DNA of 64,000 nt from Yoonia tamlensis (GTDB lineage: Bacteria; Pseudomonadota; Alphaproteobacteria; Rhodobacterales; Rhodobacteraceae), in assembly GCF_900115105.1 (NCBI RefSeq), contig NZ_FOYP01000001.1:646097-710096 (forward strand). The letters are read 5' to 3'. Numbering within the stretch: the first letter of the stretch is position 1; the number at the start of each line of letters is the position of its first letter. This document shows, in pieces, positions 37,117-46,382 of this stretch. The notes beneath the pieces are model-generated. The model saw only the letters and a list, made by a program, of their open reading frames with translations. It did no database searches and was not told the origin of the DNA. A program made the position numbers and the translations under genes.

Positions 37117-37296
37117 ACTGCCAGACACTAAAGAACGGGCGCAGCCGGTGCCACGCCCATTTCGCACGAGATCCGCTAGACGGGGTAATTTCTTGCCGTT
37201 ACGTTGACCGCAAATACGACGGGGGCAATGATCTGCGCAGGCTATGGCCATGTTGCGCCACAGAAAATTGACCCAAAACAAGATCGGGCAGACCAG

Positions 37297-39102
37297 ATGT
37301 CACATATTTACCTGAAACTGGGCGATGCCGTCATCGCGATCAACTGTCCGGATCAATTGACCGAAGTTATCGCGACTTTCTGGCCAAGGGTTGTTGCCTG
37401 CGACGCGCAAGAAAGCACCCTTACGACGATCCGGATTGATGCGGTGACCCCCAAAAGCTGGATGATTCTGGGCGAAGGGTTCGCGCCGGTAGGACCGGTC
37501 GCAAAGGCGGATATCATTACCGCGCTGACCGACCGTGTCCAACAGATTTTGGCAACCGCAAAGCGGGGATTTGTGGTGCATGCCGCCGCGGCATCATGGG
37601 ACCAGGAAACGGTTCTTGTCATGGGTGCCCAAGGCAGTGGCAAATCGCATTTGCTTGCGTGGCTGGTTGAACGCGGCCTTGCGATGCTGGCCGATAACGA
37701 CCTGTTTTTCATGCCTGAATATGACGGGCTTGTCGGGTTGGGAGGGCCGGTTGCATTTGCAGCAGGTGACAAGAACAAGGCCTTGGCGGGGCTAAAGGAT
37801 TTTAGCAACTGCCTGACATTGGCAGGCACCGACCGCGCGGTTGTCTTGGCCGATCCCGATTGGGTGTTGCCCAATGCGCCAACCCGACCGGCATTTGTGA
37901 TCTTTGTGGAACATGCCAGTAACAGCCACCTGACGATTGCGCCACTGACGGTGCAGGATGTTGCCGCCAAGATCAAGAATATCCACCCCGATCTGGACAG
38001 TGCCGCTATCGAGAAACTGCAGGCCTATCTGGGCGATTTGCCTGCGTTTTCGCTTAATTATGCGGGTTATGACGACATCGAGAATGTCGTCGATCAACTG
38101 TGCTATTACGCGATCAGCGTAAAACCCGACGCGGATGTGTTTCGCAGCTATGTGCAGCGCATGTGCGGATCACAGGCCAGCCGCAACAAGGTGATGGAAA
38201 TCCCTGCGCGCACCGACCGCAAGCTGAGCCCGCGACTGACAATCGGCATGGCCACATATGATGATTACGACGGGGTCTACTTTTCGCTGCAGGCGATCCG
38301 CTTGTATCATCCTGAAATTCTGGACGAAGTCGAATTTCTGGTTCTGGACAATAATCCGACGGGTGCCTGCGCGCCGGCGCTGAAGCGGTTGGAAAACAAT
38401 ATTCCCAACTATCGCTATATTCCCGCAACCGGTATCAAAGGCACCGCTGTGCGCGATTACATTTTCTACGAAGCCTACGGCGAATATGTGCTGTCGATGG
38501 ATTGTCACGTGTTTTTCACGCCCGGATCTCTTAAGCGGTTATTGGACTATTATGCCGCAAACCCCGACACGGATGATCTGTTGCAGGGGCCGCTTTTGCA
38601 TGACGATTTGAACACGGTTGCTACCCATTTTGTGCCCAAGTGGAGCAGCGGCATGTTCGGCATCTGGAGCGAATCTGAAAATGATTTTGATCCCGATGGC
38701 ACCCCGTTCGATATCCCCAGTCAGGGCTTGGGCATCTTTAGCTGCAAGAAATCGGCGTGGCCCGGTTTTAACCCGTCATTTCAGGGCTTTGGCGGTGAAG
38801 AAGGCTATATTCACCAGAAATTCAGAAACCTTGGGCGCCGGACCTTGTGCCTGCCTTTCTTGCAATGGATGCACCGTTTTGAACGCCCCTACGGTGTGGC
38901 CTATCGCAATGTCTGGGAGGACCGGATCCGAAACTATGTTCTGGGATTTGAAGAAGTCGGCATGCCGCTTGACGAAATGCGCGCGCATTTCACAGAGCTG
39001 GTCAACAAGCGGACCGTCGATGCCGTGTTCCAAGAGGTTGCCGCCCAAAAGGCAAAGCCGGTTATCGGGCAGGCACATTTTCCCAAGCAAAAGCTGTCTT
39101 GA
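37297..39102 (+). CDS. HPr-kinase-like P-loop domain fused to GT2 glycosyltransferase
   Basis: A 601-residue fusion. Residues 1-300 form an HPr-kinase/phosphorylase-like domain: a beta-rich start, RGFVVHAAAASW, P-loop GAQGSGKS at about 110-117, then AMLADNDLFFMP, where HprK-type proteins have the catalytic DD/DN pair. Residues 311-570 form a family-2 glycosyltransferase: LTIGMATYDDYDGVYFSLQAIR, EFLVLDNNPTGA, SMDCHVFFTPGSL and GEEGYIHQKFRN. Possible starts are the ATGs at 37228 (near GGGGG) and 37297, or TTG 37204; 37297 matches the domain start. The gene overlaps galE by 41 bp convergently and opposes the HPr-kinase/PqqD operon, to which it probably belongs functionally. Confidence 0.75.
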   Translation: MSHIYLKLGDAVIAINCPDQLTEVIATFWPRVVACDAQESTLTTIRIDAVTPKSWMILGEGFAPVGPVAKADIITALTDRVQQILATAKRGFVVHAAAASWDQETVLVMGAQGSGKSHLLAWLVERGLAMLADNDLFFMPEYDGLVGLGGPVAFAAGDKNKALAGLKDFSNCLTLAGTDRAVVLADPDWVLPNAPTRPAFVIFVEHASNSHLTIAPLTVQDVAAKIKNIHPDLDSAAIEKLQAYLGDLPAFSLNYAGYDDIENVVDQLCYYAISVKPDADVFRSYVQRMCGSQASRNKVMEIPARTDRKLSPRLTIGMATYDDYDGVYFSLQAIRLYHPEILDEVEFLVLDNNPTGACAPALKRLENNIPNYRYIPATGIKGTAVRDYIFYEAYGEYVLSMDCHVFFTPGSLKRLLDYYAANPDTDDLLQGPLLHDDLNTVATHFVPKWSSGMFGIWSESENDFDPDGTPFDIPSQGLGIFSCKKSAWPGFNPSFQGFGGEEGYIHQKFRNLGRRTLCLPFLQWMHRFERPYGVAYRNVWEDRIRNYVLGFEEVGMPLDEMRAHFTELVNKRTVDAVFQEVAAQKAKPVIGQAHFPKQKLS

Positions 39103-40039
39103 GGATCACGTCGATATCATCAAATGCGGGCGTCCAGCCTAGCCGTTCCCGGGCCAGATCGGCGTTTGAAATGACAATAGCCTGATCGCCTGCGCGGCGT
39201 GGTTGGTTGCGGACCGGGAGTGGCGCGCCAGCGGCCCTGCCAACAGCATCCGCGATTTCACGCACCGAATGGCCTTTGCCATAGCCCAGATTGCACAAGA
39301 TATTGGCGCCGCCTGATTGCAGCGCAACAAGCGCAAGCCGGTGCGCGATGACCAGATCGCTGACATGGATATAGTCGCGCACGCATGTCCCGTCGGGCGT
39401 GGCGTAGTCGTTGCCATATATTTCCAGCACATCGCGCTTGCCCGCTGCGACCGCGCAGGCGACCTTGATCAGGCTTTGTGCGTCTGGCGTGGATTGCCCG
39501 ATCCGGCCCGCCGGATCGGCCCCCGCAACATTGAAATACCGCAAGATCGCAATGCCGATGCCAGAGGCGCGCGACGCATCTTGCAACATCTGTTCGGTAA
39601 ACAGTTTCGACCACCCGTAGGGCGACGCGGGCTGACAAGGCGCTGTTTCCGCAATCGGTGCGCTGCTGGTTGCGCCATAGACAGCCGCGGTTGACGAAAA
39701 CACGATATGTCTGACGCCGTAGCGTAGCAGGTTTTGCACCAGCGCGCGGCTGGCTTCGGTGTTGTTTTGAAAATATCGCAGAGGGTCGCCTATCGATTCC
39801 GGCAGGCTGGTTGATCCGGCAAAATGAAAGACCGCCGATATATCGCAGCTCTGGCAGATACGGTCGATTATGGCCTCGTCAGCGACATCGCCCTGAAAGA
39901 ACCGCGCGTCTTTGTGGATGACGGCGCTGCAACCTGTTGAAAGGTCGTCCAAAATAGCCACATCATACCCGTGATCAATCAGCTCCAAGACCATGTGGCT
40001 GCCGATATAGCCTGCGCCTCCGGTTACCAGTATTGTCAA
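39062..40039 (-). CDS. galE: UDP-glucose 4-epimerase
   Basis: Interconverts UDP-glucose and UDP-galactose using bound NAD. The 325-residue product shows ILVTGGAGYIGSHMVLELIDHGYDVAILDDLSTG, VFHFAGSTSLPESIGDPLRYFQNN, the catalytic SSTAAVYG and SPYGWSKLFTEQML, and CVRDYIHVSDLVIAH. It closes the leftward glycosyltransferase cluster and most likely supplies a UDP-hexose donor. A 13-bp terminator hairpin lies upstream of it, so it may have its own promoter. The C-terminus runs slightly into the convergent fusion gene. Confidence 0.94.
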   Translation of the reverse strand: MTILVTGGAGYIGSHMVLELIDHGYDVAILDDLSTGCSAVIHKDARFFQGDVADEAIIDRICQSCDISAVFHFAGSTSLPESIGDPLRYFQNNTEASRALVQNLLRYGVRHIVFSSTAAVYGATSSAPIAETAPCQPASPYGWSKLFTEQMLQDASRASGIGIAILRYFNVAGADPAGRIGQSTPDAQSLIKVACAVAAGKRDVLEIYGNDYATPDGTCVRDYIHVSDLVIAHRLALVALQSGGANILCNLGYGKGHSVREIADAVGRAAGAPLPVRNQPRRAGDQAIVISNADLARERLGWTPAFDDIDVILKTAFAWENVPAR

Positions 40040-40091
40040 AACGGCCTCTTGAATGCGGGGGATACGCCAATCCGCGGCCCCCCAAATAAAT

Positions 40092-40125
40092 GCGCAGCCT
40101 GAAATGGATTTGTTTCAGGCTGCGC
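40092..40125 (-). terminator. Strong 13-bp hairpin
   Basis: Perfect arms GCGCAGCCTGAAA and TTTCAGGCTGCGC with an 8-nt loop, between the Thr/Pro-tailed protein gene and galE. In the leftward direction it is followed by ATTTATTT, consistent with a rho-independent terminator. Confidence 0.7.
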
Positions 40126-40179
40126 AATTCTATATTTGTAACAAAGCATTGCGACCCGAGAATGGCCGCCGGCACAGCC

Positions 40180-40605
40180 CTATGCGGGCGATGTTGTTGG
40201 CACGCTTGTGGTGGTCGGGGCTGCTGTCGTTGGCGCCGCTGTTGTCACTGTGACGTCGGGTGTTGTTGTCGGCGCTTCGGCTTCGTCTGCTTCGGCGTAG
40301 CCGTAGCTGAACACTGGTGCGTTTTGCAAGAAATCATAGCCGACCATCAGCGCGGTGTTGTCGAAAAGGTAGCCCGCGCTCAGATCCGCACCAAATTCGC
40401 CTGAACCCAGGTAATAGCTACCGCCAAGGCCAAAGACGGCCTCTTCGGGTTGGTTGTCGGAAAGTATCTTTGCGGTGATCGCAAACTGTGGCGACTGGCC
40501 GCCACCGAAGGCAACACCGCCACCCAGCATGAATGTCGGTTCAGCGCTGAGTGTGGCAGGGCCAAGCAGGGCCGCAGCACAAGTCGAAACTAGAATATGT
40601 CGCAT
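40180..40605 (-). CDS. Secreted small protein with Thr/Pro-rich tail
   Basis: A 141-residue exported protein of no family that I recognise. Signal peptide MRHILVSTCAAALLGPATLSA, then a glycine-rich beta-strand domain (about residues 24-105: MLGGGVAFGGG, VFGLGGSYYLGSGEFGADLSAGYLFDN, ALMVGYDF) resembling part of an outer-membrane barrel, then a 35-residue low-complexity tail of TT, AAP and TTS repeats. Thr/Pro-rich tails are typical of O-glycosylated regions in other systems. Its position between a glycosyltransferase operon and galE makes it a candidate substrate, but this is inference. AAGAGAG precedes the ATG. Confidence 0.6.
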   Translation of the reverse strand: MRHILVSTCAAALLGPATLSAEPTFMLGGGVAFGGGQSPQFAITAKILSDNQPEEAVFGLGGSYYLGSGEFGADLSAGYLFDNTALMVGYDFLQNAPVFSYGYAEADEAEAPTTTPDVTVTTAAPTTAAPTTTSVPTTSPA

Positions 40606-40720
40606 AAAGATACTCTCTTGTAGATTGGGGTTCTATAAAATCTGCTTAAAGTCTTATGCATACTGCAAAATACCGACCTGAAAATCAATCAAGTATTACT
40701 ATGCCGTCCGGTTATTGCAA

Positions 40721-42196
40721 CTAACCCGGGTTTTTGCCCTGACGTAGTTCCAGCAAATGCGGCGCAAACGGCAAACGTTCATATTTGATGCGCGCGGGCG
40801 TGTCCGGTTCTGACTGGATGAATTTGCTGTCAAGCGACACCAAAGATATGGGGAAATCTGTCTCCTCCAGCGCAAGATCCATCGAAAACCGGACAGAATA
40901 GGGTCCGGCTGCCTTGGACAGATGCAGCACCTGCACATGGCCAAGATTGCGGTCTGCCCCGTTGATTTCAAGCTCGATGCGTCTGCGTATGGCGGGCATT
41001 TTAAACACAAGATTTGCGGTCAATGTCCATGTCCCCGCCGCACCCGAATGCGATTGTGCGGCGACATGCGACAGAACCATCGGGCCGGTATCTGCGGCCT
41101 GTGCCTTGCGCGTTAACCTGCGCAGTTGGCGCGTGTCGCTTTGTGCGTTTCGGCCCGAAAACCGCATGCGCGCCGCTGCGTGAACGATGGCGCGGGCGCG
41201 GGTTTGCAGCGCTGTCAGATCTTGCGCATCGCGCGCGAGTATCAACGAAGGGATATCGCGCAATCGCGCGCGGGCAGAATGGGCACCAAAACGGCGCAGC
41301 GCGTCATCCGGCAGGGGGATGTCTAATTCTTGGGCAAGAAACGACAGCGCAATTGCAACAGGCCCGCGCAATCGCCGGCCCTGCGCAATGGCATATAGTT
41401 TGTCCCAGTCTACGGTTTCGCTGTTAAGTATCCCGACGATATCGACCAACCAGTCGCTGTGGTGGTGCCCGTCCCATGCGCCGTGTCCCATAGCCATTAC
41501 CAGCCGTTCTTCGACGCAAGGCACAAAGACCGGTAGGTCATAGTAGTTAACGGGGATCGCGTCGCGGATCAGTGCGGTGTCAAATTGCGGGTGCGCCTGG
41601 ATGTGCTGATAGGCACAGCGGTGCAGGTCGATGTCGCCAAACCGCCCCTTTTTGAAATTGCGCGCGCGCACGCTTGACAGGCGCGCCTTTAGGCCCAAGG
41701 CGCTTTCGCCGCGGGTGGATTGCCAGCCGTCATCAAGCAACATAGCGGCGGCGGTTTCGAAATCCGCGTCCGGCATCACAAGATCAAGATCAAATGCGCT
41801 GCGTGATTTTTGCTGTGTCGGATCAAGCGCAACCCGCGCGGCCCCCTTGAGCAAGACAGGCTTGAGCCCCATTTCAACAAATTTTTGCAAGGGCGGCAGG
41901 TTGGCAGAGACGGCCAGACGCGACTGGGTCCAATGCAGGCGGTGCATGCCAACAAGGCGCGGGTATTCCGGCAAGGCGTCAATCGCGCGCCCGAAGCGGC
42001 TTGTTATCGCGGCAAAAAGCCGGTGTTCGGGAAAGCTGGCATCATCAAGATCGTTTTGCGACAGCCAATCAGACAGGGCCTGACGCGCGACGGTTTCATC
42101 GGGGTTCAGGGCTGCTTGCAGCAACTGCAAACGCCCGCCGTCGGGCCATGCCCATGCAAAATTCGGAAATCTGCGCGAAAGAAGGGAGCTGTTCAT
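40721..42196 (-). CDS. Nucleotidyltransferase, PF14907 (NTP_transf_5)-like
   Basis: A 491-residue protein. The nucleotidyltransferase core is at residues 105-180: PVLLKGAARVAL, then SRSAFDLDLVMPD (R plus DxD metal ligands) and FGDIDLHRC. This LLKG...R...DIDLL layout is characteristic of PF14907. In known clusters these genes sit next to HPr-kinase and PqqD homologs and are linked to peptide or glycan modification. The C-terminal 150 residues carry beta-rich segments of unknown role. Its start overlaps the preceding glycosyltransferase by four bases. Confidence 0.75.
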   Translation of the reverse strand: MNSSLLSRRFPNFAWAWPDGGRLQLLQAALNPDETVARQALSDWLSQNDLDDASFPEHRLFAAITSRFGRAIDALPEYPRLVGMHRLHWTQSRLAVSANLPPLQKFVEMGLKPVLLKGAARVALDPTQQKSRSAFDLDLVMPDADFETAAAMLLDDGWQSTRGESALGLKARLSSVRARNFKKGRFGDIDLHRCAYQHIQAHPQFDTALIRDAIPVNYYDLPVFVPCVEERLVMAMGHGAWDGHHHSDWLVDIVGILNSETVDWDKLYAIAQGRRLRGPVAIALSFLAQELDIPLPDDALRRFGAHSARARLRDIPSLILARDAQDLTALQTRARAIVHAAARMRFSGRNAQSDTRQLRRLTRKAQAADTGPMVLSHVAAQSHSGAAGTWTLTANLVFKMPAIRRRIELEINGADRNLGHVQVLHLSKAAGPYSVRFSMDLALEETDFPISLVSLDSKFIQSEPDTPARIKYERLPFAPHLLELRQGKNPG

Positions 42197-42861
42197 TTTT
42201 GTTCAGCCTGACGCCGGCGCATGATTGCCGCGCGTGCGACCGACAAATAGCCGCGGTGGCTGTAGTCATCTGCGCGATAGGTCATGCTGCCCGCAATGAT
42301 GCGCCGCAGCATCAAAACCTCGGGCAATATATGCAAGCTATAGCCTGCCGCGCGTGCGCGACCCAGCCAATCCACCATGTCACCGGAACCACCAGGCGGG
42401 TCGATGACGGGGCCGACTTTGTCAAATGTGGCCCTGTGCAAAACGATCGACGACCGGATGAGCGCATCGCGTTCTTCGCCCTTTGTGCGATCACTGTCAC
42501 CATGGTGAAACTGGCGCGATTTTGTGAATGAAATCGCATTTGGGCCAAGGGTCGCCAGATGGGCCATTTGCTGCGCCATTTTTTGCGGAAGCCAGATGTC
42601 ATCTGCATCCAATCCGGCGATTACAGGCGCGCTTGTCAGGCGGATCGCATGCGTTGTCGCCGCCCCACAGCCCGTGTTGGGCTGGCTGACAATGCGGGCG
42701 GCCGCAGGGTGGGCTTTGACACATGCGACGGTGTTGTCTGTTGATCCGTCATCAACCACGACAATTTCGGAGGGTTGAAGGCTCTGCGCCAGAACAGAAT
42801 CAAGTGTTTCGACAATCGTGCGGGCGGCGTTATAGGCCGGTATAACAACAGCGTAATTCAT
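42193..42861 (-). CDS. Family-2 glycosyltransferase
   Basis: A 222-residue inverting glycosyltransferase. N-terminus MNYAVVIPAYNAARTIVETLDSVLAQSLQPSEIVVVDDGSTDNT, then NTGCGAATTHAIRLTSAPVIAGLDADDIWLPQKM with the DxD metal site (DADD), all typical of GT2. No membrane segment. Overlaps both neighbours by four bases. It is shorter than many GT2 enzymes but includes the acceptor-site region. Sugar and acceptor unknown. Confidence 0.87.
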   Translation of the reverse strand: MNYAVVIPAYNAARTIVETLDSVLAQSLQPSEIVVVDDGSTDNTVACVKAHPAAARIVSQPNTGCGAATTHAIRLTSAPVIAGLDADDIWLPQKMAQQMAHLATLGPNAISFTKSRQFHHGDSDRTKGEERDALIRSSIVLHRATFDKVGPVIDPPGGSGDMVDWLGRARAAGYSLHILPEVLMLRRIIAGSMTYRADDYSHRGYLSVARAAIMRRRQAEQK

Positions 42862-43610
42862 TTTGCCCAAAAATCCCTTGGAAGTTCTACGTTGAATTCC
42901 GGTTTCACAAGGCGACGCCATGGTTCGCGCCTACGCCGCACCACACTGCGCACAAGCGCGCGGTTGAACCATAATGTATTGTCTTCCATTTTGGCGGACA
43001 TGTTTCCATCATGGCGCAGATAGTAGTGGCAAACGGTTGGTGTCTGGCGAAAATTCACGCCGATCTCAAACGTTCTGAAAATAAAATCCGTGTCTTCAGC
43101 CATTTCCAAGCCTTCATCAAACCGGCCAATGCGATCAATCAGGGCGCGCCGATACAGGCAGCACGCCAAGTGGATGCTTGTCAGCGCGATCTGTTTTGCG
43201 TCCACGGGGACGCTGAAGGTTTCGCGGTCAATTTCAAATGTAATCAGCATATCGCCGTAGGTGATTTCGACCTCGGGTTCATCAAGCAGGATTTTCAGGT
43301 CGGTAGCAAAACGGTCCGGTGCCATAATATCATCAGAGTCGAGAAAGGTCACAAACGCGGTTTGCGGCAGCAGGTTTTCAAGGCCCGTATTCCGTGCACG
43401 CGTGACGCCGCCGTTTTCGCGGCGCACAATGCGGACGCGTGGGTCCTGATCCGCGAGGGCGGACAGAACCTTTGGTGTTGCGTCGGTTGACCCGTCGTCG
43501 ATAACCAAAACATCAAGCGGCAGTGGCGCGTTCTGGCGCAATACGGATTCGATCGCTGACCGGATATGCGTTGCACGATTGTATACGGGGATAATGACGG
43601 TAACGGTCAA
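42858..43610 (-). CDS. Family-2 glycosyltransferase
   Basis: A 250-residue GT2 enzyme paralogous in layout to its neighbour: MTVTVIIPVYNRATHIRSAIESVLRQ, VLVIDDGSTDAT, NGGVTRARNTGLENL and VTFLDSDDIMAPDRF (DSDD). A C-terminal basic stretch (VVRRRREPWRRLVKPEF) may contact membrane or acceptor. Its four-base overlaps with the HPr-kinase-like gene and the second glycosyltransferase show operon translation coupling. Confidence 0.88.
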   Translation of the reverse strand: MTVTVIIPVYNRATHIRSAIESVLRQNAPLPLDVLVIDDGSTDATPKVLSALADQDPRVRIVRRENGGVTRARNTGLENLLPQTAFVTFLDSDDIMAPDRFATDLKILLDEPEVEITYGDMLITFEIDRETFSVPVDAKQIALTSIHLACCLYRRALIDRIGRFDEGLEMAEDTDFIFRTFEIGVNFRQTPTVCHYYLRHDGNMSAKMEDNTLWFNRALVRSVVRRRREPWRRLVKPEFNVELPRDFWAK

Positions 43611-44668
43611 TGTAATGTCCTTAGAAACTGGCGTAGCACGGCGGTGATTTCGTCAGGCTCGGTGCCCAGATCCAGCCGGTAGGCCGGCAGCAGGCGCGCA
43701 ATTTTGCCGGCAACCGAAAACAGGCGCGGGCGATCACAGTGGATTTGGGTCACGCCCGACGGGGCCAGCGCGATAAACGCGGATTTGGCATCAACTGGCG
43801 TGACACTGGTTTGGTCGCCATGCGTAAGATGCGGCAACAAAATCGCCTTAAGGTCGATTTGGGATGCCAAGGCGCCATCTGTCACATCTGGCAGATAGAA
43901 CTGGTGCTTGCCCTGCCAATTGGCTGCTTTGGGGATTGCGGCATGATCCCATTGCCCCAGACGGCGCAATCCGGCTTCGTCCTGTTTTAATGTATCGAAA
44001 ACAGGGCAGGCAGCACGTTTGCCCGCATCAACTAGCACGTAATCATCGCCGACGCTTTGCAGTCCGGCGAATATACCGGCAAGCACCGTTGAAGATTTTC
44101 CCGCCCCGCCTGCGCCCGCCAGCAGAACCCCCGCGCCGTCCAGCGCCAAAGTGCCGCCATGCAAAAGCGACCTGTCGACGGCGCCAAGGTGCCATTGAAC
44201 AAAATTGCGCAGCGGCGATCCGGCATCCCAAGCGGGATATCCTTCGCGCGACGCCATCCACTGGATCCCGATTGCGCGATCAACATCAAAGACCTGCCAG
44301 AAATCGAGATCATCAAAATAGTGCAGCCGGTAGGGCGTTTTTGACAGAATTGCCTCGATCTCGCGTTCACGGAAACGGTGTGGCGGCCAATAGGGCATCG
44401 CGCAAAGCCGGTCATCCGCGTTGATCACGGCAATGCGACACTGGCTTTTATGGCCGGTGTCGCGGGTTGCGAGTGCGCGCTGCGCCTGTTCCAGATAGCA
44501 GAGATCGTTGGACCCCACATGCATTGCGGCACCGGCCACGGTCAAAGTCCGCTTATGCGCCACCGCAGCAAAAACATCGTCGAACCCCGCAAGAAATTCT
44601 TGGATCGATGTGACAACTGTGTGTTCGCAAAACGATATTTGGTTCGCTTGAAGCGCTGTTCCAATCAT
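43607..44668 (-). CDS. HPr-kinase-like P-loop protein (HprK-related)
   Basis: A 353-residue protein. Residues 1-160 form an N-terminal domain with PYWPPHRFREREIE and WQVFDVDRAIGIQW; then LLHGGTLALDGAGVLLAGAGGAGKSSTVLAGIFAGL gives a P-loop GAGGAGKS near 185-192, followed by SVGDDYVLVD, the paired Asp of the HPr kinase fold. This resembles the HprK-related kinases found beside PqqD proteins in peptide-modifying clusters. It lacks the bacterial HPr kinase N-terminal domain, so HPr is not the obvious substrate. The start (ATG 44668) lies seven bases after the PqqD stop. Confidence 0.75.
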   Translation of the reverse strand: MIGTALQANQISFCEHTVVTSIQEFLAGFDDVFAAVAHKRTLTVAGAAMHVGSNDLCYLEQAQRALATRDTGHKSQCRIAVINADDRLCAMPYWPPHRFREREIEAILSKTPYRLHYFDDLDFWQVFDVDRAIGIQWMASREGYPAWDAGSPLRNFVQWHLGAVDRSLLHGGTLALDGAGVLLAGAGGAGKSSTVLAGIFAGLQSVGDDYVLVDAGKRAACPVFDTLKQDEAGLRRLGQWDHAAIPKAANWQGKHQFYLPDVTDGALASQIDLKAILLPHLTHGDQTSVTPVDAKSAFIALAPSGVTQIHCDRPRLFSVAGKIARLLPAYRLDLGTEPDEITAVLRQFLRTLH

Positions 44669-44675
44669 CGGGCCG

Positions 44676-45047
44676 CTATGTGTTTTCAGGAAGTTTGGGC
44701 CAGCCCTGTTGTTCGTCAACGTCGTGGATCGGGTCCGCGAGGATGAGATCGGACAGATCATCATAGACATCAACCGTTGGTGCCGCTGCTAAGTCTTGGG
44801 CGTCTGCGGTAATTGCGGCTTCGTCTGATGCAACAATCAGGCCAAGATCAACAAGCTGTGCGGCAAAGGCGGCCCCGTGCGCTGCTGAAACATCCGCTGG
44901 ATCGGCGCCTGCTGCGATGCTCATCCACAATGCCGCCCCGGATTCATTTAGCCCGAAGTACTGGCCTGACTGGAGATTGAGCACGACAATTTCGCCGTCA
45001 AATTCTTCGTGGACCACATCGGGGCCTGCCATTTTATAACGAGCCAT
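44676..45047 (-). CDS. PqqD-family protein with acidic C-terminal tail
   Basis: A 123-residue protein. Residues 1-78 form the PqqD/RRE winged-helix fold (YKMAGPDVVHEEFDGEIVVLNLQSGQYFGLNESGAALWMSIAAGADPADV), which in RiPP pathways binds a leader peptide. Residues 80-123 form an extra acidic tail ending DLILADPIHDVDEQQGW and PKLP. In HPr-rel-A-type loci such PqqD proteins are called peptide chaperones. AAAGGCGG precedes the ATG by eight bases. It is followed by the HPr-kinase-like gene. The tail could be a modified segment or a docking site; this is unproven. Confidence 0.8.
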   Translation of the reverse strand: MARYKMAGPDVVHEEFDGEIVVLNLQSGQYFGLNESGAALWMSIAAGADPADVSAAHGAAFAAQLVDLGLIVASDEAAITADAQDLAAAPTVDVYDDLSDLILADPIHDVDEQQGWPKLPENT

Positions 45048-45127
45048 GAAGCCGCCTTTCATTGTGCAAATTTTGGTAGAGTATTGGTAAATAAAGTCAT
45101 GAAAGACAAGGCCGGTCCCGGCGCTTG

Positions 45128-46231
45128 TCATGGGTTTCCAACATAACGGGCGCCGATCCTTTCAGGTGGCACGCTTTGCCGTCTGGCGCGTCTGTTCCGG
45201 CTATGCGCCTGGGTGACCACGTGTCTGTTCCAGTGCAAATAATGGGCAAAACGGAGCCATTGCACAGGGCCGTGCGCGGGCCGTGTGCGGGCAAATAGCC
45301 GGTCAGCATCTGACGGGTCCGCTGCTGCCAATAGCCGTTTAACCGTGTCGGGGTTCTTGTTCAGAATAAATGCAAGCAATGAAAAGCCCGAAATGCGCAG
45401 ATCGTCTGTTTGGTCTTCATTCACTGCGGTGAAAAACAGCCTGCGCGACAAGGCCAATGCAAACAGGTCGCTGAGCAGATCGACAAGCGCCTCTGTGCGG
45501 TCGAGCGTGGCTGCGTTGTGCAATGGGACGCCACCAAGATCAGGGGTTTGTGTCACGCCGAACACAGTTGTCGTAGGGTGCAAGATTTCCGCGGCGGCAG
45601 AAATTGCCTGCGCGCTGTCAGAGCAGATCAGTACCGACCGCCCACGCAAGACCGACCGCAAGCGCGTCAAAAATGTTGCGAAGTCAGTCTTGTAGTCTGA
45701 ATGGCGGATATGGATGGCATCAAAATCCGCGCTTAGGCTGCGCAGGTTGTCCACAATCAGCCGCGCAATCTGCGGCACAAGGCAAAGCCGGTCAAGCGCC
45801 GCAAAGGATGCAGGTCCGCCGCCGGCTTGTTCGTAGACAATGAGCTGTTCGCTGTGGTCTTGTGCGGCATCAAAGTTAAGCTCGCAGCCGGTCAGGGTAT
45901 CAACGTAATAGGCGTGTTGTGGTACCCATTCGGTTTCATACGAAGATATGCGATGACATATTTCGCGCGGATAAACAGATGTGAGCGCATCAAATGCGGG
46001 TATCATTCCGTCGGTCCACCCCAAGACCTCGCAGCCGAAATGTTCTTGTGGGGTAAACACATCCTGAAACGGCATCCGGATGCCAGAACGCGTTGTATCA
46101 ATAAGCAGAACGCGGTTGTACTTGATCGCGTAGAGACGGCATTTTTCAATTTGGACCATCGCGTCATTAAAGCCCCCGCGCGGCCGGCAAAGCAGATAGG
46201 TCTTGCGCGGGTCACAGATAAAATCAGCCAT
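45128..46231 (-). CDS. Fucosyltransferase-like (GT23/GT65-type fold) protein
   Basis: A 367-residue soluble protein. The N-terminal YLLCRPRGGFNDAMVQIEKCRLYAIKYNRVLLIDTTRSG has the GG.ND..qQi pattern near the start, the middle has DAIHIRHSDYKTDF, and the sequence VLICSDSAQAISAAAEIL follows; this order is similar to NodZ/Fut8-like and O-fucosyltransferase-type GT enzymes (HxRxxD then SDS). No membrane segment. The ATG overlaps the 3' end of a short upstream ORF by eight bases. It heads the leftward operon. Acceptor unknown; identification is moderate. Confidence 0.6.
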   Translation of the reverse strand: MADFICDPRKTYLLCRPRGGFNDAMVQIEKCRLYAIKYNRVLLIDTTRSGIRMPFQDVFTPQEHFGCEVLGWTDGMIPAFDALTSVYPREICHRISSYETEWVPQHAYYVDTLTGCELNFDAAQDHSEQLIVYEQAGGGPASFAALDRLCLVPQIARLIVDNLRSLSADFDAIHIRHSDYKTDFATFLTRLRSVLRGRSVLICSDSAQAISAAAEILHPTTTVFGVTQTPDLGGVPLHNAATLDRTEALVDLLSDLFALALSRRLFFTAVNEDQTDDLRISGFSLLAFILNKNPDTVKRLLAAADPSDADRLFARTRPAHGPVQWLRFAHYLHWNRHVVTQAHSRNRRARRQSVPPERIGARYVGNP

Positions 46232-46382
46232 TGTGGCACGCCTTTGGGATGTGTCGGGTATGATGGAACGATTTGTCCGATCTGGCCCCGTTGTCCTGCT
46301 TGGCGCTGCCGTGATCGCGCGGTGAAATACCTTTGGCCCTGAAATGGCCGACGGCGCGGCAAACCTGTGCTGTTTCTGTCAT
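46224..46382 (-). CDS. Candidate short ORF (52 aa) at the head of the operon
   Basis: A 52-codon ORF beginning MTETAQVCRAVGHF and ending HIPKACHNG. It has a GAAAGGCAGG ribosome site five bases before the ATG and overlaps the next gene's ATG by eight bases. It has no similarity to known leader peptides, and its codon use is uncertain because it is rich in Arg/His/Lys. It could be a real small protein, a translational leader or a peptide substrate of the PqqD pathway. Confidence that it is coding is low to moderate. Confidence 0.35.
   Translation of the reverse strand: MTETAQVCRAVGHFRAKGISPRDHGSAKQDNGARSDKSFHHTRHIPKACHNG

Follow-up and report, generated by a model that had tools for sequence, protein, structure and literature searches.

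The 64,000-nucleotide stretch of the Yoonia tamlensis genome analysed here (the window; contig NZ_FOYP01000001.1, positions 646,097 to 710,096) carries a compact leftward run of five genes, extending from 45047 to 40721, that code in order for a PqqD-type protein, an HPr-kinase-like (HprK-like) protein, two family 2 glycosyltransferases (GT2) and a nucleotidyltransferase (NTase) of the PF14907 family (Table 1). The junctions, taken from the gene coordinates, are tight (4-7 bp throughout), with a 7-bp gap between the PqqD and HprK-like genes followed by three overlaps of 4 bp. The start of the PqqD gene was chosen by comparison with homologues. An earlier note on this DNA had placed these five genes in a single leftward run and read them as a coherent modification cassette; the first claim is confirmed by profile matches and coordinates, which also bear out most of its family assignments, and the second is supported by gene content and order that are kept in relatives.

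Table 1. Features of the cassette and its surroundings, in window coordinates.
Feature	Position	Strand	Evidence or location
PqqD-type RRE protein, 123 aa	44676..45047	-	PF05402; AF2 model compared with lasso B1-leader complexes
Conserved PqqD tail, PTVDVYDDLSDLILADPIHDVDEQQGWPKLPENT + stop	44676..44780	-	Three alignments; tail-profile matches
HPr-kinase-like protein	43607..44668	-	HPr_kinase_C profile; motifs; match to solved HPr kinases
GT2 glycosyltransferase b	42858..43610	-	PF00535; 4-bp overlap with kinase gene
GT2 glycosyltransferase a	42193..42861	-	PF00535; start set by homology
PF14907 pol-beta-type nucleotidyltransferase, C-terminal beta-sandwich	40721..42196	-	Pfam; AF2 model; fold matches
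Accessory gene, labelled fucosyltransferase-like in the earlier note	45128..46231	-	Upstream of core
GalE, UDP-glucose 4-epimerase	39062..40039	-	TIGR01179; downstream of core
HprK-like/GT2 fusion	37294..39102	+	Faces the leftward run

The PF14907 assignment holds, the NTase scoring 71.9 bits against a gathering cut-off of 31.2 (NTP_transf_5, E 7.9e-20). Its AlphaFold 2 (AF2) model, with a predicted local distance difference test (pLDDT) score of 89.7, ends in a beta-sandwich at about residues 355-490, and the Asp pair is mostly kept among relatives. Both GT2 enzymes match PF00535 (E 2.4e-26 for a and 2.4e-28 for b). For the kinase-like protein the predicted P-loop family is borne out in part: the match to HPr_kinase_C (PF07475) has an E-value of 2.2e-5 and the motif is intact, but the score of 24.5 bits lies under the Pfam cut-off of 33.3. 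The His, the GxGKS P-loop and the DD pair are in register with those of HPr kinases, and further weight for the call comes from a profile comparison in which the protein matches HPr kinases of solved structure (E 2.7e-5) with these motifs aligned. The P-loop, His205, Asp243 and Asp244 (counted from an open reading frame (ORF) start at 44773) are invariant across all 42 sequences compared. An HprK-related kinase beside a PqqD protein is also the arrangement of the HPr-rel-A system. The window pair shares this arrangement and differs in score, the kinase-like protein reaching only 25.8 of the 200 bits required by TIGR04352.

The PqqD protein matches PF05402 over its cut-off (E 6.8e-7, 30.0 bits against 23.4). 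In the AF2 model (pLDDT 87) residues 1-77 form the recognition element (RRE) fold of ribosomally synthesised and post-translationally modified peptide (RiPP) pathways. By fold comparison this is modelled with the B1-type fold of lasso peptide biosynthesis, resembling B1 proteins with a bound leader peptide (5v1u, 5v1v and 6jx3). The C-terminus carries a class-specific tail with a consensus of approximately DLxxADPIHDVDxxxGWP, in which residues 92-95 are modelled as a strand following the RRE (pLDDT 87 for residues 91-100); beyond residue 101 the pLDDT is about 58. Across 39 aligned PqqD proteins no Ser or Thr is invariant, and the sole invariant Tyr, Tyr30, lies within a strand of the RRE. A profile made from the tail alone found 10 places in 8 of 385 genomes of the class; besides the window's own, eight of these fall on PqqD proteins, and the last is in a reading frame regarded as spurious. 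The motif offers a genome-mining handle for this class of PqqD protein. Shortened tails, for example YDDMAELLALDPPLP, are seen in PqqD proteins encoded next to GT2 and NTase genes at three loci (L112, 7146-7544; L143, 9602-10057; L144, 9634-10053). At a further locus (L172, 9739-10008) a tailless PqqD protein of 89 aa adjoins two GT2 matches with no HprK or NTase match nearby, and is possibly a different type of RRE-glycosyltransferase system.

The gene order of the window is shared by members of the genus and family among the fetched stretches, the nearest named relative being the cassette of another Yoonia (L052). A search with the full PqqD protein matched 12 of 394 genomes of the family, and PF14907 passes its cut-off in 17 of 99 genomes, the window genome included. 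A pattern lying within the tail, run once against genome_contigs, identified 42 loci, which span the Rhodobacteraceae, other Alphaproteobacteria, Kiritimatiellota, Verrucomicrobiota, Planctomycetota and Sumerlaeota and also include Clostridia, one spirochaete and one actinobacterial bin; because the loci were chosen by that pattern, conservation of the tail among them is partly a product of selection. Pooling all fetches and dropping 7 duplicate loci left 53 distinct tail-bearing relatives (L092 and L050, in which a contig end truncates the PqqD gene, are left out of the count), in which partner genes were detected by profiles built from these loci rather than by Pfam. An HprK-like gene is found at 50 of them, a GT2 gene at 52 and an NTase match at 45, with all three kinds within 6.5 kb at 43. 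The order PqqD-HprK-GT2-NTase on one strand, allowing intervening genes and merging adjacent GT2 matches, is kept at 30; the other 23 are on short contigs, are divergent or rearranged, or miss a member, as in L093, which lacks a GT2 gene, and L091, where neither HprK nor NTase was matched. Most Clostridial loci have the NTase and HprK genes ahead of PqqD. True fusions among the relatives join GT2 to GT2 (L036, L089) or two PP-loop domains to a GT2 (L088); apparent HprK-GT2 fusions among the 42 loci were in fact overlapping reading frames. The genes are thus not randomly assorted. A loose assembly of unrelated genes, as the patchy occurrence within the genus might suggest (PF14907 over its cut-off in 6 of 56 genomes), is contradicted by an order kept across phyla and is most improbable. 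The five-gene block is a unit that recurs in very different bacteria.

Because the earlier scan had selected on the tail, the search was repeated with the PqqD domain alone, which matched 64 of the 385 class genomes. The association between tail and neighbours was then scored for 52 PqqD genes on 49 stretches, comprising 9 from the tail search and 40 of the higher-scoring places of the domain-only search, with partner genes again detected by the profiles built from the tail-bearing loci; the eight tailed genes of this sample were matched by the domain-only search as well. A GT2 gene on the same strand within 5 kb accompanies 8 of 8 tailed but only 3 of 44 tailless PqqD genes (Fisher p 2.2e-7, a value that ignores descent), whereas for HprK the figures are 6 of 8 and 23 of 44.

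Enzymes of the HprK-like and PF14907 kinds are known chiefly as accessory members of lasso peptide clusters. In pseudomycoidin, PsmK places a phosphate on the C-terminal Ser, and the one or two hexoses that this phosphate carries depend on PsmN (PMC9266682). The enzyme kinds of the cassette, PqqD and GT2 proteins included, are also listed for the lasso clusters of rumen bacteria (PMC7533575). The likeness of the cassette to pseudomycoidin-type clusters, as described there, lies in the HPr-kinase-like kinase and the nucleotidyltransferase homologue (PMC9266682, PMC7533575). It differs from them in that no lasso B2 protein is encoded in the window genome, no cyclase was among the window proteins scanned and no precursor was found, while its PqqD protein has a class-specific tail and GT2 enzymes are near-constant (52 of 53 loci). 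The combination of PsmK- and PsmN-like enzyme kinds with two GT2 enzymes and an RRE suggests phosphorylation, capping and extension on a substrate held by the RRE. We consider it possible, with a probability of about 0.4, that the cassette encodes a self-contained, cytosolic module for RRE-guided phospho-glycosylation, akin to PsmK/PsmN but forming no lasso, that acts on a peptide or protein. The PqqD-type protein would serve as an adaptor, its RRE domain holding a substrate peptide encoded outside the cassette and its tail docking the glycosylation enzymes. The HprK-like kinase would phosphorylate the substrate, the PF14907 enzyme would act on the phosphate by adding a hexose, as reported for PsmN, or a nucleotidyl- or glycosyl-phosphate unit, and the two GT2 enzymes would extend the modification; in some Rhodobacteraceae a radical S-adenosylmethionine (SAM) enzyme would add a further step. 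The same enzymes might instead build or decorate a glycan with no peptide involved, the NTase moving a polyol- or sugar-phosphate in the manner of FKRP, the kinase making a phospho-sugar and the RRE acting only as a scaffold, which we regard as an unlikely alternative.

Several observations weigh against the phospho-glycosylation module. The kinase-like protein is under both the Pfam and the NCBIfam cut-offs, and the cassette genes include neither an exporter nor a leader protease. No convincing conserved precursor was found near the cassettes among ORFs 20-130 aa long, lying no more than 7.5 kb away, that recurred at >=3 loci (blastp E < 1e-4), although one that is distant, fast-changing or fused is possible; the small-ORF families shown were PqqD genes, reading frames that by their coordinates overlap PqqD or GT2 genes, and one family in three planctomycetal loci. 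Just 5 of the 8 tailed PqqD genes in the association sample have an NTase gene nearby (7 of 44 tailless). The link between tail and GT2 is itself imperfect: L172 is tailless beside its two GT2 matches, and L112, L143 and L144 combine a GT2 gene with a PqqD protein whose tail is shortened; of these, L112 was scored as tailed and the similar L143 and L144 as tailless, so that 2 of the 3 tailless genes with a GT2 carry a shortened tail. The domain model by which tailed and tailless genes alike were found was built from proteins of the tail class and so favours them. A poorly resolved tree of 101 domains accounts for the tail with as few as 5 changes and leaves the tail-GT2 association with a single independent pair when supported branches are used, or 7 when all are; the association may reflect shared descent, largely within one clade. 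Given these few changes and the single supported pair, we take the tail as the mark of a clade and offer a role with the GT2 enzymes as a hypothesis only.

As no separate precursor was found, the possibility that PqqD is both adaptor and substrate has been kept. Here the tail would resemble a precursor, held in cis by the RRE while the kinase, NTase and GT2 enzymes modify it. This is consistent with the little space between the cassette genes, the ordering of strand 92-95 after the RRE in the model, the lack of lasso B2 in the window genome and the location on PqqD of 8 of the 9 tail-profile loci in the class sample, the ninth frame being the one judged spurious. In its fullest form, this reading would have RRE and substrate united in a single chain, as a permanent peptide carrier whose phosphorylated and glycosylated tail makes up a protein-linked phospho-glycan, with no need of a separate precursor, protease or exporter. 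However, the lack of an invariant Ser or Thr speaks against PqqD as the usual acceptor and favours an adaptor with its substrate elsewhere. In addition, the one invariant Tyr is part of an RRE strand, the residues after 101 are modelled with low scores and shortened tails persist in L112, L143 and L144. Overall, PqqD as a substrate seems unlikely, and the permanent carrier slightly more so.

Known partners of such enzymes were also sought. Lasso B2 (PF13471) gave 0 matches in the window genome; across this genome and those of 19 of the 42 tail-scan loci, 5 of 20 matched, 3 over the cut-off. No Asn_synthase cyclase was present among ten window proteins scanned. The flanks were sampled by random draw from ORF calls of 180-700 aa (124 of 268 genes at tail loci, where strong GT2 matches within 6.5 kb had been set aside as cassette members, and 129 of 250 at tailless loci). 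Asn_synthase was not in the 25 commonest of 125 families among the 124 tail-locus neighbours, single cases being possible, whereas beside tailless PqqD genes Asn_synthase and GATase each occurred in 9 of 129, Asn_synthase being joint commonest. The statement that the locus has no known partner enzyme holds for the window genome, from which, as from the window, the cassette-associated radical SAM family (CNIxCRQC) is absent, but not for 10 of the 53 relatives, all Rhodobacteraceae, which carry this gene (split in L038, partial in L058). The same family occurs in 3 of 56 genus genomes, each time beside the cassette. In L038 (13527-14530) the gene is split as if decaying.

The earlier note had further tied the peptide modification to a surface polysaccharide, a reading in keeping with galE and the fucosyltransferase-like gene in the window and with one Clostridial locus. 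General coupling of this kind is not borne out. The flanks of tail-bearing loci are mixed (2 GLF, 2 PS_pyruv_trans and 2 GT2 among 124 genes), and the expected enrichment for polysaccharide families was absent from the 25 commonest of their 125 families; it was the tailless control flanks that had more sugar-nucleotide families (Epimerase 4, RmlD 4). Nor do the five window cassette proteins contain a strongly hydrophobic stretch. The surface polysaccharide reading is therefore improbable.

Among other known systems, SynChlorMet (ScmC, ScmD, ScmF) has HprK-like, PqqD-related and radical SAM members, and the window kinase, PqqD protein and the radical SAM protein of L054 match these weakly, all far under the cut-offs. 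Proteins combining an RRE with a glycosyltransferase have been proposed as new RiPP types by RRE-Finder; those named are fusions, and the word kinase is absent from the main text (PMC7470986). Within open-licence PubMed Central papers no literature was found on the cassette or on the tail strings DPIHDVD and DPIHEVD. The parts are already known, and the cassette looks like a variant not described in that literature. Being compact, widespread and, here, free of lasso genes, it is a simple system for learning the function of PF14907 enzymes.

The remaining genes of the locus lie around this unit. GalE (390 bits against a TIGR01179 cut-off of 262) and the HprK-GT2 fusion are not part of the conserved cassette. 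The fusion protein matches PF00535 (E 5.5e-8) and HprK_rel_A (E 5.5e-9, 35.5 of 200 bits), and is left outside the unit because no full-length relative was found in 98 other genomes, 21 of which match it over a short stretch containing the P-loop. The fucosyltransferase-like label is unsupported, as sequence searches with the protein gave no match in Pfam, NCBIfam or the PDB; its relatives adjoin three other distinct cassettes (L037/L052, L043/L062 and L057). A role in anti-phage defence was considered, and the PADLOC 2023 models gave no convincing match to seven window proteins and one relative, the lone match being DndF (E 0.003), confined to a 36-residue part of the fusion protein. As for spread by phages or plasmids, none of 36 pattern matches in viral_contigs codes for a relative, and plasmids gave a single weak HprK match. 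When recJ flanks were compared to look for an empty site, the translated matches were noisy, and no conclusion is drawn from them.

Six Clostridial loci and the spirochaete carry an extra PP-loop (SGGVDS) protein, whose genes adjoin the cassette in up to four tandem copies (L085, 10414-11589; L086, 11106-15813; L088, 10452-13010); searches with that of L085 gave no match in Pfam or NCBIfam and no meaningful one in the PDB. In the window, a 141-aa protein is encoded between the NTase gene and galE (40180-40605, minus strand). It had no relative at the other loci fetched up to that point. Its start resembles a signal peptide by eye and its C-terminus is rich in Thr and Pro (TTTPDVTVTTAAPTTAAPTTT...), making it a possible candidate for a glycosylation target.
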